The notes under the pieces were generated by a model. It did not search any database. It saw only the letters and a program-made list of their open reading frames with translations, and was not told where the DNA came from. This document shows positions 28,887 to 45,973 of a stretch of 64,000 nt of DNA, one piece after another (within the stretch, counting starts at the first letter, position 1; each line of letters starts with the position of its first letter). The DNA is from a bacterium (Candidatus Blackallbacteria) CG13_big_fil_rev_8_21_14_2_50_49_14 (GTDB lineage: Bacteria; Cyanobacteriota; Sericytochromatia; UBA7694): the NCBI GenBank assembly GCA_002783405.1, contig PFGG01000075.1, positions 1 to 64,000 of the forward strand, written 5' to 3'. A program made the position numbers and the translations under genes.

Positions 28887-30068
28887 TTAATGAGGTTTTC
28901 CACCGGCAGGCACATAAAATTCAGGCTCAAACATCTTTGGCCGTACACGCATCAGTTCACGGGCATCCTGCACAGAATAGCCTTGAGAAATCAGGGTGAT
29001 TAATTCTGCACTGGCCTCCATCGAATAGGGATAAAAGGCCGAAGCAAAACTGATCTTCTTATTCTGACTGTATTTGACGGACTCACTCAGCTCCTGTACC
29101 ACCAAGGGCAAAAGATTTTCAAAAAAGCGTTTGGCCTGTGGGTCTTTGCCACTCTCTCGGGCGGCCAGGTAGAGATCCGCATTGTATTTTGGAAACTCGC
29201 GCAGATTTTTCTGTTGTTCGGGAAAAATACGAGTGGGATTATCATCGACCAGAACCACGTGTTCCAAAGTCTCGTCGATCATACGCAAATCTTTGGATAA
29301 TTTGACAGACTTGCTGTCACGCACAAGATGGTTGCGGGTAAAAACGCCTTTTAAAAAACGACGAAAAGGCTGCCCACCTATTTTTAACTGATCTATCAGC
29401 GCCAGTGATGATTGATCTTCTTTGGCTGTAAATACAAGAACGCCCTTACAACCAGGTATTTTTACAATTTCTTGTAAAGCTTTTTCCCAACCAGGGGTCA
29501 TTGAGACATAGTCTGGGCTGCGCAAGGGGGGGCGCAGGATTGAATCCAGGGTTGAGAGTTTAAAGTCATAGTATTTTGACCCTTTCTCACCACTCTGATA
29601 CCAATGCTCCAGCAAAGTTTCATCCATATCAAAAACAGCATAAAATTCATGGCCCTGTAATTTTTGAGGCACAAATCCGCTCTCAAAAACTTTTTCATTT
29701 TTCACCCTGTAAACAGCTTTTTGCAAAGCAGCCAAAACCAGGGTGTCGTGGTTTTGAATCAAAGCTGTGGAAAGGCCAGCTTCTTCTGCAGCTAAAAAAT
29801 CAGGGTTCGCGTCGAGTAAATCTTTCATCTGGTTCTGAATTTCAATGGCCTCAAGACGCGAGTACCCATCTTTGAGCATCAAGGAAATATTTAAATGCCC
29901 CCGTGAGAAGCCCTCTTTATACCAGGCGGGCATGGGCTCAAGCAGATACTTTCCCAACGAGCGATCCAAACTTTCGGCATGGGCTGTCAAAGGAGAAACC
30001 ATACTTAACAAGACGCTCAGAATAGCAAGCTTTTTAAGACAATTCATAAACACGCGCCTACTTTTCAT
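28887..30068 (-). CDS. exported HAD-superfamily phosphatase-like protein
   Basis: The protein has about 393 residues. ATG 30068 and ATG 30047 both give a basic leader and a signal peptide ending near SPLTAHA. HAD motifs are visible: motif I FAVFDMDETL-type (AVFDMDETLLEHWY), motif II VLVFTAKED, a Lys in the SKSVKLSKDLRM region and motif IV VVLVDDNPTRIFP. It is thus an exported haloacid-dehalogenase-fold enzyme, likely an acid phosphatase of unknown substrate. The last 60 residues contain a helix-rich tail. Its stop is about 20 bp upstream of the pterin dehydratase frame, so both may be co-transcribed. Confidence 0.82.
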   Translation of the reverse strand: MKSRRVFMNCLKKLAILSVLLSMVSPLTAHAESLDRSLGKYLLEPMPAWYKEGFSRGHLNISLMLKDGYSRLEAIEIQNQMKDLLDANPDFLAAEEAGLSTALIQNHDTLVLAALQKAVYRVKNEKVFESGFVPQKLQGHEFYAVFDMDETLLEHWYQSGEKGSKYYDFKLSTLDSILRPPLRSPDYVSMTPGWEKALQEIVKIPGCKGVLVFTAKEDQSSLALIDQLKIGGQPFRRFLKGVFTRNHLVRDSKSVKLSKDLRMIDETLEHVVLVDDNPTRIFPEQQKNLREFPKYNADLYLAARESGKDPQAKRFFENLLPLVVQELSESVKYSQNKKISFASAFYPYSMEASAELITLISQGYSVQDARELMRVRPKMFEPEFYVPAGGKPH

Positions 30069-30202: not shown

Positions 30203-30231
30203 TTGCGTTTTTGTAACAAATTGAATACAAT
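30203..30231 (+). promoter_or_regulatory. sigma-70 promoter of the leader RNA
   Basis: TTGCGT (30203-30208) and TACAAT (30226-30231) are separated by 17 bp, near-consensus spacing. The predicted start is about 30238-30240, ahead of a structured leader and terminator. Confidence 0.7.
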
Positions 30232-30243
30232 ATCAATTGTATT
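30224..30243. promoter_or_regulatory. inverted repeat over the -10 box, probable operator
   Basis: Arms AATACAAT and ATTGTATT flank a 4-bp spacer and cover the -10 box and predicted start site. A repressor bound here would block the promoter of the coiled-coil locus. Confidence 0.55.
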
Positions 30244-30413
30244 GTCAGCAGCTAAGTAGCTTTGTTCCTGCTTGTTTTAAAGACAATGTGCCTGACCTCC
30301 TGGGTCACAGTCTGATCGAAGCAATATCGATCACCCTTTACAGTGTCTTAAAAACGAAATCAGAAATAAGGCAAAAGAAGTTAGCCCTTTGCTAGCTTCT
30401 TTTTTTATTTTTT
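30239..30413 (+). ncRNA. structured leader RNA ending in a terminator
   Basis: A predicted transcript of about 170 nt folds as a three-way junction. The closing stem is AAGACAATGT (30280-30289) with ACAGTGTCTT (30340-30349), one mismatch. Inside are hairpins TGACC-TCCT-GGTCA and TGATCG/CGATCA. A linker follows, then the intrinsic terminator at 30377-30406. It ends 100 bp before the coiled-coil giant, on the same strand, so it is either a riboswitch-like attenuator or a free-standing small RNA. It does not match any riboswitch consensus I can recall. Confidence 0.55.
30377..30413 (+). terminator. intrinsic terminator upstream of the coiled-coil gene
   Basis: GAAGTTAGC and GCTAGCTTC form a 9-bp stem with a CCTTT loop, followed by seven T, an A, then seven more T. 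This is a strong terminator that any transcript from the 30.2 kb promoter must pass to reach the coding region. Confidence 0.88.
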
Positions 30414-30509
30414 TGGCTTTAAATTCAATACAAAGTTAAGCTCAAATTAAATCTCATTCAGATCTGGACTGATTAAACCTATAATTTCGCCAGTGAGGTG
30501 GTTAAATTT

Positions 30510-33500
30510 ATGAGTTTCGTCAACAACAGCAGTTCAACAGGTATTCAATTTATTGGCAGCACGTCAGAAGCTGCCCGCATCGGCAAGCCCGCGTCAAACC
30601 CGGTCACACCAGCCACGGCCCCTGTGGTTCCCCAAAGCACAGATCAGATCGCACAGAGCGCAGGGCACGAAGGCCAAGCCAAACCCGTCAGTTTTTTAGA
30701 TGGTTCCCCAAAAACCCTCCAGGTAAAACAACTCCTGGCGCAGGGAAAATTTGACGATTTGGTTCCCCTCTTAAACAGCATGAATTCCCGTGAACTGGCA
30801 GATCTGCATTTAACCACCCAAGAGATCAATAAAATCGCAGATGGTTTGGGCAAAGGCAGCCTCACCGCCTCTCTGCCCCTGATCGGCTCCTATACCACCG
30901 AGGAGCAAAATGCAGTTCAACGCCTGATCAAAGCTTCAAATCACCTCTCCGTCAACCAAAAAGTCTATCTGCTCAAAGAAAATATTGGCCCCGGTGCCGT
31001 GCTGGAATATATCCAATCGGCCCGGCCTGCAGACCTGAAGCAGCTTTCCGTTGCCAACCGACAAATGGCCCTGAGCGTTTTAGATCCTGGCAGCTCAATC
31101 TGGGGAACCGTCTCTGGGGCTGCCACAGAGGTCGTCAGTCGCCGAGCGATTGGCGGCGAACGGATCGAAGATCGGCTCGCTGGACAGATCTTAAAATCGG
31201 CCAGAAATGAAAAAGAATTGCACGATCTGCTCGGACAGTTAAACCAGTTCAGCCGGGATGACGCCACCTATCATTATGTGATGTCACTTTCCCCTCAAGA
31301 GCTCAATGGCCTCTCCGATGCCATGAAAAAAGAATTGCTTCAACATCTTGTGGATACTGGCGTTCAGCTGCCCTTGATCCATATCGATCTCAACAGCATC
31401 GCCAATCTTGACGAAACCCTCAACATGACCTTTAAAGAACATGTGCAGGCAGCCCGCCTGCTGTATACCGCTCTGACCCCTCAGGCCCAGCAGAGCAAAG
31501 AAATACAAACCATCGTCAGCAAAAGTGATGCTTTGATGCAGGAGCTTTCACAATTGGAAAGCGCGATCAAAAAAGATCAGGCGGCAGGAAAACTCACCCA
31601 AGAAAAAATTCAGCAATACCGCCAACAGGCCCAAAGTCTGCAAAGCAAATACCCAGACAACCCGCAAATCAAACAAAAAGTTCAGGAATTATTGGGCACC
31701 CTGACCCAGTTGCAAGCAGGTCTACAACAGGCAGCCGGCAGTCAGGTCAGCGTCCTCAAAGACCTGGAACAAATCCGGGGCAGCATCAAACAATACAGCA
31801 ATGCGCTGCAAAACTCCCGCAAAACCCTGGACCAGCTCAAAACGTCCTTGCCCCAAGCACAGCAACGCTTGGAAAGCAGTGAACAAGCCTTGCTAAAACA
31901 TTACGAAACGCTGATCCAAAGCCGCAAAAAATTTGAGGGTCTGGAACCCCGCTACGGACAGGTTTTACAGGAAATGGAAGCCGCCCTGCAAAACCCACGC
32001 ACCCAAAAAGGCAAACTCGCACAACTCGAAAGCCTGAATCAACAGCTGAAACAAATCGAAGCCCAAATGGATCGGCAAAATCAGTCCTATCAAAGCATTC
32101 TGGCAGAAGTAAACAGCACAGGCGAAGCCCTGCAGACCGATATTACCCGTTATAACCAAGCGGCAGAACAGGTCAACAGTCGGCGTCAAGAACTGCAAAC
32201 TCAACAGACCAAACTGGAACACAACCTGAGCAATTACCAAACCCAAGTCAGTCGTTTGGAAAAAGGAGTCACTCAAGCCAAAGATCAACTGCAGGAATTG
32301 AAACAGGCGGGCGCCCAAGCAGGGGATCTTGCCAGCCTTGAAACCGAAATCACCAAGATCAAAACAGAAATTGACGCCCATAAAAAAAGTCTGGCCAGTG
32401 TTCAGACCGACTACACCCGATACCTGGGTCCTGAAGCCGAAAAGCTGGTTCAGAGCCAAAACAGCCAAAGCTCAGAGTTTAAAGCACTCGAACCGAAAAT
32501 TGAAGCCGCCGAGACCAGTCAAGGCATCATCGCCAGCATTGCCCAGGGCATTGATGACGGGTATACCTACCTGAAAGAGAAAATCAGTCAGGTATTGGAT
32601 GGCGCAAGATCCTTTGTTTCAGATTGGCAAACCCGTCTGAGTTCAGGAGAAACCATTTCCAGCGCCAATATTCAAGATTTTCGCAAGCAATTGAATACCC
32701 AAATTCAAGAATTGGAAGCCCGCCGACAGGACTCTCCTGAAGAAGTTGAAGCCCAGATTCAAGCCTTGAAAGCCTTGGAAACCAGTGTGAATCAATTGGA
32801 AAGCCAGCTCAAAACCAGCGATCAAGTCGCTGGAGAATTGGGTCAAAGCCTTGAGAACCTGAAAACCAGGCAAACTCAGATTCAACAAGAACTGAAAGCA
32901 ACAGATGAAGTGATCGCACTTTCAGAACAGGCCCTGAAACGCAACTCAGAGAAGATCACTGCCCTGCAGGCAGAGATTTCGCAGTTTCAAGGTGAGCTCG
33001 GCAACTACAGTCAAGATATTATGAAATTGAAAGTTCAATTGGATGCGCGTCAGAAGGAATCCGCTGCCGCGCAACAAAATTATGCCGAAGGCAAAATTTC
33101 AGGCTCAGATTTAAGCCAAAAATTAAAGGCCAGTGAAGCAGCACAAATCAGCCTGAAACAAAAAATGGAGAGCCTTTTTCAAGCCATGCAACGTGTGCAG
33201 GGGCAAATGGATGTCAGTATTGAAAGCCTGCAAGCACAACAAAAAAGTTTGGGCCATGAACAGACCAAACTCCAAAACGCGATTCAAAAATCGGAAAGTC
33301 TGCGTACTGAATTAACCCAAGTCAAAGACAGCAACCTGCAAAAAATAAATACAGCCCAAACCACCCTGCAAAACCTCCAATCGGATGCAGCAAAATATCC
33401 CGCGATTCAGAAAAAAGCCCAGGAACTGCAAACCTTGGTGGGTACTCTGGGCGCAAAGAACCAAGAAATTGACAGCTTGATTGCAGGAACCAATCAGACC

Positions 33501-35150
33501 CTGGTGGAGGTTCTGCCTTTAAATCGAGCCCTGGGAGCAGCAGGCGAAAAAGTTCAAACCCTGGAAGCGCAGTTCCAGAGTCTGAAACTGACGCAGTTGG
33601 CCACGACCCAACAATCCCTTGATCACGTCAGCCGGGAATTTTTAAAATTGCAGGAAACCGCTGGCTCTCTCCGCAAAGAAGCCGAACAACTGGAATACAG
33701 CCTGCACAACAGTCAAAAACCCTTTGCGATTCAAGAAATGCAGACCCAGATCGATCAGCTGATTCAAAAACAGGGAATTCCTTCAGCACAGGTAGAACGC
33801 TTACTGCAGCTCAAACAGGATCTCGAATCACTGCGAAAAACGCGCCAGGAAGGCGATTTGGCTTTAAGTGCAAACCGAGCCGTGCGTCAACACCACCATT
33901 CGGATTATACTGCAGCGCAAGCAGCGGTCAGCGACGTGCGCGCCCAGGTCGCAGCGATCGAATCGACCCTTTCACAGACAGAATCTGAGGTCAAAGCAGG
34001 TCAGCAGGATATGCTGAAGATGCAGCAGCAGATGCTGGAAATGCGCAAACAACTGGGCATACATTCTGGAGCCTACCAGGAGCGTCTTGAGCGCTATGAA
34101 CACTTGCTAAAAAATGGGGGCAATCTCAGTGAAAAAGATGTAGCTGAACTGCAAACCCTGGAACAAGAACTTTCTGGCATGGAACAGGATTTGGCCAACC
34201 AATCAGACACAGTGCGTGAAAAACTGGCTGGTTTCAATATGCTCAAGGCAAAGATCAATCAACAGATTGACAGTTTGCGTGAAAAAAGCCAAACCCTGCT
34301 GACTTTGCGGCAAAATCTCAGTGTCAGCCTGAATGCTCTGAAAGACTCTCGCGCCAATCTGGCCACCCACCAGGTCTCACTGCAAGCACAACGCGATGAT
34401 CTGGCCTCACGTCTTTCTGAAATAGAGGCCATGCTGCGCACCTATCCAGGCACACGTGAACTCTTGGAAATTCGCGATCAACTCCGTCAGGAATTGACAG
34501 AAACAGATCAATTGCTCACCCAATACCATGCCGAACTGAGCCAGACAGACCAAGATATTCATGCCAGTGAAAAACTCATTACAGGGATTGACGAAACGCT
34601 TGAAAAATCCAGAACGATTCAAGAAAAACTCACGCTTTTAATCTTAAAATTGAATGATCTGATTCAACAGGGAGAAGCGCTTGAACACGATCTGAATGAA
34701 ATGCAGGAAACCCTCAAAAGCCAATCCAGCGATGAAAAAGCCACACGTGAACACCTGGAAAAAGGAAAAACCCTGCCCAAGCCGTCCCCAGCGGCCTCAG
34801 CCAGCCCTACAGCCAAAGCGGAAAAACGTCCAAGTCCAGAAACCTCTACAGCGCTCAAAAGCGTACAAAAGTTTTTTGATGAAAGTCTCTCAGGTTTGAT
34901 TCGCCAGCAGAAACGCAACGAAGAAAAACGGGAAAATGAGCATCAAGAAAAACGGGAAGAATTTATCAAAGTTCTGGAACAACAGATCAACGCATCACGT
35001 CAGTATGATCATTCCTGGAAAGAAAAAATTGAGCAGCAGGCTGAACTTGAAAAGATCACTGAACTCATGATTCAAAAATCTTTTGCGGGCCAGAATATGC
35101 CTTCTGGCCTGAATATTCTGGGAATCAATACAGCAGCACAAGAAGCATAA
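30510..35150 (+). CDS. 1546-residue coiled-coil protein, unknown function
   Basis: The ATG at 30510 is chosen over the in-frame GTG at 30498, because AGGTGG lies 8 bp before it. Residues about 1-45 are Ser/Pro/Thr-rich and disordered. Residues 60-310 form a helical, non-coiled domain. From about 330 to 1400 the sequence is almost continuous heptad-type coiled coil rich in Gln, Glu, Lys and Leu, with breaks near 680-710. A Pro/Ser linker (about 1415-1440) precedes a charged C-terminal helix. No Walker motifs are present, so it is not an SMC ATPase. There is no signal peptide. The next gene starts 1 bp later, so the two are surely coupled. A cytoskeletal, scaffold or tether role is only an inference. 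Confidence 0.9.
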   Translation: MSFVNNSSSTGIQFIGSTSEAARIGKPASNPVTPATAPVVPQSTDQIAQSAGHEGQAKPVSFLDGSPKTLQVKQLLAQGKFDDLVPLLNSMNSRELADLHLTTQEINKIADGLGKGSLTASLPLIGSYTTEEQNAVQRLIKASNHLSVNQKVYLLKENIGPGAVLEYIQSARPADLKQLSVANRQMALSVLDPGSSIWGTVSGAATEVVSRRAIGGERIEDRLAGQILKSARNEKELHDLLGQLNQFSRDDATYHYVMSLSPQELNGLSDAMKKELLQHLVDTGVQLPLIHIDLNSIANLDETLNMTFKEHVQAARLLYTALTPQAQQSKEIQTIVSKSDALMQELSQLESAIKKDQAAGKLTQEKIQQYRQQAQSLQSKYPDNPQIKQKVQELLGTLTQLQAGLQQAAGSQVSVLKDLEQIRGSIKQYSNALQNSRKTLDQLKTSLPQAQQRLESSEQALLKHYETLIQSRKKFEGLEPRYGQVLQEMEAALQNPRTQKGKLAQLESLNQQLKQIEAQMDRQNQSYQSILAEVNSTGEALQTDITRYNQAAEQVNSRRQELQTQQTKLEHNLSNYQTQVSRLEKGVTQAKDQLQELKQAGAQAGDLASLETEITKIKTEIDAHKKSLASVQTDYTRYLGPEAEKLVQSQNSQSSEFKALEPKIEAAETSQGIIASIAQGIDDGYTYLKEKISQVLDGARSFVSDWQTRLSSGETISSANIQDFRKQLNTQIQELEARRQDSPEEVEAQIQALKALETSVNQLESQLKTSDQVAGELGQSLENLKTRQTQIQQELKATDEVIALSEQALKRNSEKITALQAEISQFQGELGNYSQDIMKLKVQLDARQKESAAAQQNYAEGKISGSDLSQKLKASEAAQISLKQKMESLFQAMQRVQGQMDVSIESLQAQQKSLGHEQTKLQNAIQKSESLRTELTQVKDSNLQKINTAQTTLQNLQSDAAKYPAIQKKAQELQTLVGTLGAKNQEIDSLIAGTNQTLVEVLPLNRALGAAGEKVQTLEAQFQSLKLTQLATTQQSLDHVSREFLKLQETAGSLRKEAEQLEYSLHNSQKPFAIQEMQTQIDQLIQKQGIPSAQVERLLQLKQDLESLRKTRQEGDLALSANRAVRQHHHSDYTAAQAAVSDVRAQVAAIESTLSQTESEVKAGQQDMLKMQQQMLEMRKQLGIHSGAYQERLERYEHLLKNGGNLSEKDVAELQTLEQELSGMEQDLANQSDTVREKLAGFNMLKAKINQQIDSLREKSQTLLTLRQNLSVSLNALKDSRANLATHQVSLQAQRDDLASRLSEIEAMLRTYPGTRELLEIRDQLRQELTETDQLLTQYHAELSQTDQDIHASEKLITGIDETLEKSRTIQEKLTLLILKLNDLIQQGEALEHDLNEMQETLKSQSSDEKATREHLEKGKTLPKPSPAASASPTAKAEKRPSPETSTALKSVQKFFDESLSGLIRQQKRNEEKRENEHQEKREEFIKVLEQQINASRQYDHSWKEKIEQQAELEKITELMIQKSFAGQNMPSGLNILGINTAAQEA

Positions 35151-37236: not shown

Positions 37237-38601
37237 ATGAAAAGATCGATAATTCCTCTCAGCCTGCCTCTCCTGCTTTCACTTTTGACTGCTTGTGGCA
37301 AAACCCAGCCCGTGGGTGTAATCGACACAGCCCCTTTGGCCGTTCAACAGATAGAATCATTAGAACGGGCTGTAGATCACCTCAATACCTCGCTGAGCCA
37401 GATTGAAAAAAAATCTCCCACAGGAGTCAAAGCAACAGAGTCCATGAATCTTTCCCAACCAGAGCTCCCTGAATCTGATCCCCTGTTGCAGGCAGCAGCA
37501 TCCTCGCTCCCCCTCGAAACACAGAGTGAAACAGAGACTTTATTGCCCCGTTTAGATGCAGAAGCTCCCCTGGAAGAACTGCCGACAGCCCAAGCTCTTT
37601 CAGACACGGCCACAGAGGGCACCGAAAGTACGCGTACCCGGAAAGAAAAACAACTCCAAATCGATGTCTATGATGGATACGGCACCACCGCCAAGCTCAC
37701 CGTCAGTGGGCGCTTATTTTCAGATCGACGCCTGGACGCCGTCGAGGAAAAAGACAGCCGCTTGAAAAATCTGGTCAAAACCTCACGCCGTTTTGTACTG
37801 AATGAAGCTGAACAGGTCTGGTTGACCGTCAGTTTGGGCTCGGAAATCAGGGAAGTGCTCACCAATGACGAGGGTTTTTTTGAAGTCAATTTTGAGCATA
37901 TCGAAGATCTGCCCCTGGGGCTTCATGCAGCCAAAGTCAGCCTTTCAGCCCGAAATATCAAACGCTACCAAGCCCAACCCAGCCAGGGTAAATTTATCCT
38001 GCACAACCCAGACTCTAACCGTTTGGGGATTATTTCAGATGTTGACGATACCATTTTGCAAACCAACGCCACCAGCAAAATGCGCATGTTGAAAACCATT
38101 TTTCTCAGCAATTATAAAACCCAATTGCCCGTCGCTGGCATGAGCGATCTCTTCAGAGCCATTCACCATGGCCCTGAAGGCGACGGCTACGACGCTACCC
38201 ATTATGTCTCCAGCAGCCCCGACAATCTTTACAGCCGCATCAACCTCTTTTTGGATTACCGTAATTTTCCAGAAGGTTCGATTGACCTCAAAAATGTGGG
38301 CCTGGGCAAAGACAATGATTCGCTTTTCGACCATGAAATTTATAAAACAGGCAAAATCAGGCGGATTCTTGAAACCTACCCACAGCGCCGTTTTATTCTG
38401 TTTGGTGACAGTGGAGAGCGCGACCCTGAAATTTATCGCCAAATTGCCCAGGAGTTTCCGCAACAGATTGTGGCGGTTTATATTCACAATGTCACAGAAG
38501 AAGATCCCTTCAGTTCGCGCTTTCAAGGCCAGATGCTGTTTACTGAACCCGATAAGGTGAAAAAGGATTTGCTCAGTCGGGGCTTGATTTACCCCTATTG
38601 A
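37237..38601 (+). CDS. App1/DUF2183-type phosphatase lipoprotein
   Basis: This 454-residue protein has a signal peptide with lipobox LLTAC (Cys near 20), an acidic spacer (to about 130), a beta-rich domain (about 135-255) and a catalytic domain (about 265-454). The latter begins [19 protein letters not shown], the DxDxT motif of the DUF2183 group, to which yeast phosphatidate phosphatase App1 belongs, and ends with [20 protein letters not shown] and IYIHNV-like residues. It probably dephosphorylates a lipid or nucleotide in the envelope. The 3' end overlaps the opposing glyA stop by 7 bp. Confidence 0.88.
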
Positions 38602-45570: not shown

Positions 45571-45580
45571 TTTGCTTCAG

Positions 45581-45973
45581 TGGAGATGGCGAGAATCGAA
45601 CTCGCGTCCACGCAACCCACTATACGAACGTCTACAGAACGTAGTCTGTGTATTAAAAATTTCATCTGGATTCACTCCCACAGACAGGATCAAATCCAAA
45701 CTAACTGATGATCTTTCTGTTCAGCTTATCAGTATCAGCTAATCAGGCAACCACTATTTAGGCCCACTCTACTTCCGTGGCCCGAAGCAGAATGGGGCTT
45801 TCCTTTATTTAGGCAGCAACCGCCACGCGAGCGGGTGCAGCTTTCAACGAAGGAAGGGCAAACAGATTTTTCTTGTTTGCGTTTAAATTTTTGCCGATAG
45901 TTTTACGAGAACATCGACATTCTCGGCCCGCAGTCCGTACGATGATGTCAAGTGTCGAAGCCTTTACATCCCC
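45581..45973 (-). ncRNA. ssrA: transfer-messenger RNA
   Basis: This 393-nt one-piece tmRNA rescues stalled ribosomes. The 5' end GGGGATG pairs with CATCTCC at the 3' end; TTCGATTCTCGCC is the T-arm. The 3' CCA is not encoded (discriminator A is followed by CTG). The tag frame runs from the GCA resume codon (45880) to TAA (45809): 23 residues starting ANKKNLFALPSLK and ending AARVAVAA-like (PARVAVAA). The hydrophobic Ala-Ala end is the usual signal for ClpXP-type proteases. Confidence 0.96.

Follow-up and report, generated by a model that had tools for sequence, protein, structure and literature searches.

The locus and its gene content

The window, i.e., the whole 64,000-nt stretch of DNA analyzed here, corresponds to positions 1 to 64,000 of contig PFGG01000075.1 of Candidatus Blackallbacteria CG13_big_fil_rev_8_21_14_2_50_49_14 (GCA_002783405.1). 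The contig is part of a 5.65-Mb genome (referred to as G000) from the cyanobacterial phylum. The region of interest lies between a divergent phosphatase gene and a gene encoding a giant coiled-coil protein, and comprises the following features:

28890–30050, minus strand: divergent upstream neighbor, NIF/HAD-type phosphatase (PF03031, 3e-13), which does not adjoin the RNA in G002
30203–30231, plus strand: predicted small RNA promoter of the sigma70 type, TTGCGT (30203–30208), 17 nt, TACAAT (30226–30231), with a predicted start near 30238
30238–30412, plus strand: candidate small RNA gene, predicted transcript of ~175 nt; promoter, 5′ tail and terminator occupy equivalent syntenic positions in all five genomes
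30242–30258, plus strand: conserved, mostly unpaired 5′ tail and candidate pairing seed, UUGUCAGCAGCUAAGUA; 82–100% identity between genera, while the bodies differ
30259–30372, plus strand: structured body; outer stem 30259–30266/30365–30372, a rod with 30280–30289/30340–30349, and hairpins at ~30294–30308 and ~30313–30333 (fold z −5.7)
30373–30414, plus strand: predicted intrinsic terminator, a 13-bp stem (30373–30403) followed by a T-tract
30436–30450, plus strand: TTAA-N7-TTAA direct repeat (11-bp period), a Pho-box-like putative operator of the coiled-coil promoter, in 5/5 genomes
30457–30485, plus strand: predicted promoter of the coiled-coil gene, TTCAGA-17-TATAAT (10/12), with TCAG and CTATAA aligned in five genomes
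30510–35150, plus strand: giant coiled-coil protein gene, the downstream neighbor (ATG 30510, 1546 aa), with orthologues in five genomes and weak coiled-coil Pfam matches only

The coiled-coil open reading frame is real, and its conserved start is ATG 30510, preceded by the Shine-Dalgarno sequence GAGGTGG (30495–30501), rather than a GTG further upstream. The protein combines a long coiled coil with an N-terminal domain of ~340 aa that is specific to the family, and its gene is followed by one for a 298-aa predicted membrane-anchored protein without a Pfam match. Elsewhere, the window encodes a protein with an APP1-type phosphatidate phosphatase domain (37237–38601; PF09949, 4e-45), a family for which fungi are the main known source, and tmRNA (45578–45973, minus strand; RF00023, 165 bits).

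With the N-terminal domain as query, one orthologue each was detected in G001 (72% identity), G003, G004, and G002 (44–49%), while 13 further genomes searched within the class yielded none; a scan of named genomes for coiled-coil orthologues returned the same four loci. These syntenic relatives bear the names Candidatus Sericytochromatia and UBA7694. The comparison hence rests on five genomes from one Sericytochromatia family: that of the window, one of the same genus (G001), and three from other genera (G002, G003, and G004), the last three having nearly identical RNA bodies.

A conserved predicted transcription unit with a constant tail and a variable body

The sequence-only reading placed a near-consensus promoter ahead of a structured RNA. 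Such a promoter exists at 30203, though it matches the consensus at only 8 of 12 positions and is absent from a generic promoter-scan list; its TTG, the 17-nt spacing and the −10 element are kept across all five genomes. Everywhere the order upstream of the coiled-coil gene is the same: a TTG-17-TAYRAT promoter, ATTGTCAGCAGCT(A/C)A..., the body, and GAAGT...CTTC with a T-tract. The predicted unit is ~170–175 nt long in G000 and G001 and ~95–105 nt in G002–G004.

The strong intrinsic terminator expected before the coding start was likewise found. Eight core pairs of its stem form in 5/5 genomes and two pairs are changed on both sides, giving a covariation score of 0.350 vs 0.230 in shuffles (24 of 500 shuffles equal it). 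On this comparison, the predicted terminator is maintained through compensatory changes.

The 17-nt tail reads UUGUCAGCAGCUMAAUU in the other four genomes and ends ...AAGUA in the window; its identity is 82–100% over all genome pairs. Unlike the bodies, the tails fold no better than shuffled sequences. G000 and G003 have an accessible tail, as does G001 over most of its length, and in G002 and G004 the tail is only moderately unpaired. It provides the conserved accessible pairing region expected of a trans-acting small RNA.

The body in the window is strongly structured. Positions 30270–30360 fold at −26.9 kcal/mol (z −4.0; 0/200 shuffles as good), the fold including the terminator has z −5.9, and 30225–30412 has z −6.2. 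The minimum-energy fold contains the stem 30280–30289/30340–30349 and the two internal hairpins described earlier; that stem is real, but it does not close the structure, since a longer one at 30259–30266/30365–30372 lies outside it. Compared with shuffles, the bodies are more stably folded, with z −5.7 and −4.0 in the window's genus and about −2 to −3 in the short form. When each RNA is folded singly, the start of the closing stem falls on one shared column, immediately behind the tail (in G002 as seen in the centroid, not in the minimum-energy fold), and the terminator follows it at once or up to 4 nt later.

The sequence of the body behaves differently from this layout. Among G002–G004 it is 91–100% identical, and between these and the window's genus it is unalignable (31–34%). 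A 68-nt core is identical at 68/68 positions in G002 and G004, compared with 53% for the adjoining coding DNA and ~60% for the flanks. Conservation of the stems in relatives had been named as a check on the structure, and the three-way junction lacks conservation even between the two genomes of the window's genus: G000 and G001 share 59% identity, vs a mean of 56% and a maximum of 61% for shuffles. On these comparisons, longer predicted folds have replaced the short body in the window's genus.

Leader or stand-alone RNA

The sequence-only reading offered either a transcription-attenuating riboswitch or a small RNA gene. The former would make the RNA a cis-acting leader, whose terminator sets read-through into the coiled-coil gene. 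A strong fold followed by a terminator is what such a leader would look like, and the RNA immediately precedes the coiled-coil gene in 5/5 genomes, including G002 with its differing upstream neighbor. However, between terminator and gene all five genomes carry a second conserved promoter (TTCAGA-like, 16–17 nt, TATAA) and, 42–44 bp upstream of its −10 element, the TTAA-N7-TTAA repeat, which by shuffling is expected 0.01–0.03 times per upstream region. Since every genome thus provides the gene with a conserved promoter and operator of its own past the terminator, the leader reading is unsupported. In the window, transcription of the gene would then begin near 30492, giving an untranslated 5′ region of ~18 nt, and the conserved promoter predicts gene transcripts that start downstream of 30413 only.

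The other features expected of an attenuator were not found either. The would-be aptamer is unconserved within the genus. No conserved antiterminator or tail–terminator pairing was detected across the five sequences, the 5′ part pairing weakly and inconsistently with the terminator arm (−2 to −9 kcal/mol). In line with the earlier remark that the RNA fits riboswitch consensuses poorly, the region has no Rfam match at gathering level, riboswitch or other, and the weak matches at E ≤ 10 are far below the cut-offs. The best of these, the patAB leader (RF02907), has a terminator-like hairpin with a U-tract in common with the RNA; it scores 24.7 bits against a cut-off of 92, and as the complementary strand scores too, only the hairpin shape is matched. 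Neither predicted transcription of the gene from the upstream promoter, nor a conserved aptamer core, nor a mutually exclusive terminator/antiterminator pair is thus in evidence. On the separate conserved promoter, the unconserved aptamer and the missing antiterminator, the riboswitch/attenuator was rejected, and we consider a cis-acting leader of any such kind improbable. The small RNA gene is the half of the proposal that finds support: the predicted unit has its own promoter and intrinsic terminator and would not be part of an mRNA.

The TTAA repeat resembles operators of the OmpR/PhoB type. In cyanobacteria, Pho boxes are built from repeats of 8 bp that have a TTAA core and are separated by linkers of 3 bp (PMC1906773; PMC11126600). 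They have at least three repeats, whereas in the family of the window the third is degenerate at best.

Comparison with known small RNAs and coding potential

In length and intergenic position the RNA resembles 6S RNA (RF00013), which would also be a single-copy structured RNA of similar size in G000. There is no RF00013 match at the locus, and a divergent 6S candidate was identified elsewhere in the same genome (contig C71:17714–17896; 38.8 vs a Rfam cut-off of 46.4 bits) and also in G004. Another comparison is with Yfr1, a short stand-alone RNA with an ultraconserved unpaired stretch, variable stems, a 3′ intrinsic terminator and a conserved genomic place (PMC2190773). The RNA described here has all these traits in common with it, but the tail is at the very 5′ end, while the Yfr1 motif is positioned between two stems, and both the conserved sequence and the locus are other ones. 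The unpaired core ACUCCUCACAC of Yfr1 (PMC2190773) is absent, and neither the window's RNA nor those of G001–G004 match any Rfam family. That the locus encodes 6S RNA, Yfr1, or some other housekeeping or cyanobacterial small RNA already known therefore seems highly improbable.

We consider it hardly conceivable that the transcript is a short mRNA for a small protein beginning at the TTG of the tail. The frame from this TTG is open for at least 20 codons in G002–G004, but TAG breaks it in the window, no ribosome-binding site fits ahead of the TTG in the predicted transcript, and the differences between G002 and G003 alter residues.

The distribution of the RNA appears narrow. When 79 relatives were searched with a covariance model built on the short form, only G002–G004 gave hits, with G000 and G001 scoring at chance level, and a DNA search of the class recovered the RNA in this UBA7694-group family only. 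As far as searched, the RNA family is restricted to this one family of Sericytochromatia. Sequences resembling the tail occur in many photosynthetic cyanobacteria; the recurring one falls within the coding part of a conserved protein gene (...CQQLICFAFHDS...). Other tail-like sites checked within the class are inside or beside open frames, and these apparent matches were discounted.

Possible modes of action

Near-start sites with complementarity to 12 tail nucleotides were compared between G000, G001, and G003, covering part of the hits for the latter two, and no orthologous gene was common to them. One near-start site in G000 (L114, cyclic-nucleotide-binding-type protein) is expected by chance. 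Pairing of the tail with the neighboring coiled-coil mRNA is matched by 17–79% of shuffled tails.

These data bear on the idea that a stand-alone RNA acts by binding a protein, or by controlling the mRNA of its neighbor, rather than by pairing in trans. An invariant tail could be a protein site, and the 68-nt core of G002 and G004 is conserved beyond the tail. Moreover, the linkage to the coiled-coil gene is constant, which leaves room for a cis or neighbor effect. Against this, the tail-to-neighbor pairing is no better than that of shuffled tails, and no known protein-binding RNA family matches. Taken together, we regard such a mode of action as unlikely. A canonical Hfq was not found in the family, but the same search also misses a cyanobacterial control.

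A box upstream of the RNA and a putative envelope-stress regulon

In G001–G004, a direct repeat, TTGTAA-N5-TTGTAAA, precedes the first base of the −35 element by exactly 45 nt. The exact pattern TTGTAANNNNNTTGTAAA has 13 sites in the five genomes vs one for the reversed control, and four of the 13 are those at the small RNA. At the RNA in the window's genome the box is absent, the best plus-strand match having five mismatches; control of the RNA must therefore differ there.

The remaining sites include, in G000 (contig C25) and in G001 (contig C62:139587), one that precedes an operon for an OmpR-type response regulator and a kinase, an arrangement seen in these two genomes and not in G002–G004. 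The G000 sites C25:20706 and C25:18061 are tied to this operon and to a gene 2.6 kb away for a Spy/CpxP-like LTXXQ protein (PF07813, 2e-14; Spy model 1e-16, below its curated cut-off). The box is common to the operon and the Spy/CpxP gene on G000 C25 and G001 C62. Several lipoprotein genes are preceded by the box too, one of them orthologous between G000 and G001.

Published motifs are GTAAA-N4-8-GTAAA for CpxR (PMC12802237) and TGTWAH-N5-TGTWAH for WalR (PMC6624279), and the spacing of the box is compatible with both. A GTAAA-N4-8-GTAAA repeat is thus present at the RNA promoter in G001–G004 and not in G000. The regulator scores with many OmpR-family models, none above its cut-off, and because of this, "Cpx-like" refers to the box, the gene content and the autoregulatory layout, not to orthology. 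Collectively, the sites make plausible a Cpx-like envelope-stress regulon in Sericytochromatia, comprising the regulator, the kinase, the Spy/CpxP-like protein, lipoproteins, and the small RNA, and suggest that a cell-envelope stress system probably switches on the RNA in G001–G004.

Enterobacteria have envelope-stress small RNAs in their Cpx and sigma-E regulons. The likeness lies in the CpxR-type repeat at four of the five promoters here, common to the regulator/kinase operon and the Spy/CpxP-like gene. In contrast, there is no sequence relation, the present family is without a recognizable canonical Hfq, and the box is missing in G000.

Model and implications

The reading that we favor, and hold to be fairly probable, is that 30238–30412 is a stand-alone gene for a trans-acting small RNA of an undescribed family, belonging to an envelope-stress regulon of this bacterial family, whose operator has been lost in the window's genome. 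Paper searches on the class turned up no earlier description of such an RNA or regulon. In this model, RNA polymerase would start at the RNA's own sigma70 promoter and stop at the intrinsic terminator. The transcript would expose its almost invariant, unpaired 5′ tail, with the folded body and the terminator hairpin protecting the 3′ end. The tail would most likely pair with mRNAs in trans, candidate targets carrying AGCUGCUGACAA-type sites and probably encoding envelope proteins. The body would mainly be a scaffold and therefore replaceable, as in the window's genus. In G001–G004, an OmpR-type regulator of a Cpx/Spy-like system would probably activate the RNA via the box, and the coiled-coil gene would be transcribed from its own promoter under the separate 11-bp-repeat operator. 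The separate conserved promoters, the predicted terminator, the tail and the boxes are established by comparison of the genomes. The base-pairing mechanism is what we infer, because the target searches gave no conserved target, and so are the identity of the regulator and the envelope role.

A more far-reaching version, which we put forward tentatively and consider somewhat doubtful as a whole, is that the 17-nt tail is the sole constant part of the RNA. One genus would have exchanged the entire body, from 46 to ~118 nt, its two species having folds that are equally long but unrelated, and would have kept the promoter, the tail and the terminator. The RNA would belong to a Cpx-like envelope-stress regulon outside Proteobacteria, its operator later lost in the species of the window.

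We thus regard the feature as real, although its interpretation as a leader was mistaken. It looks like a small RNA not described before, similar in general kind to known ones, whose mode of evolution is of interest and which plausibly belongs to a stress regulon. If this is true, the non-photosynthetic sister lineage of cyanobacteria would gain a candidate regulatory RNA together with an envelope-stress regulon, and the RNA would be a clean case in which selection retains a short pairing tail while the remainder of a small RNA is replaced.
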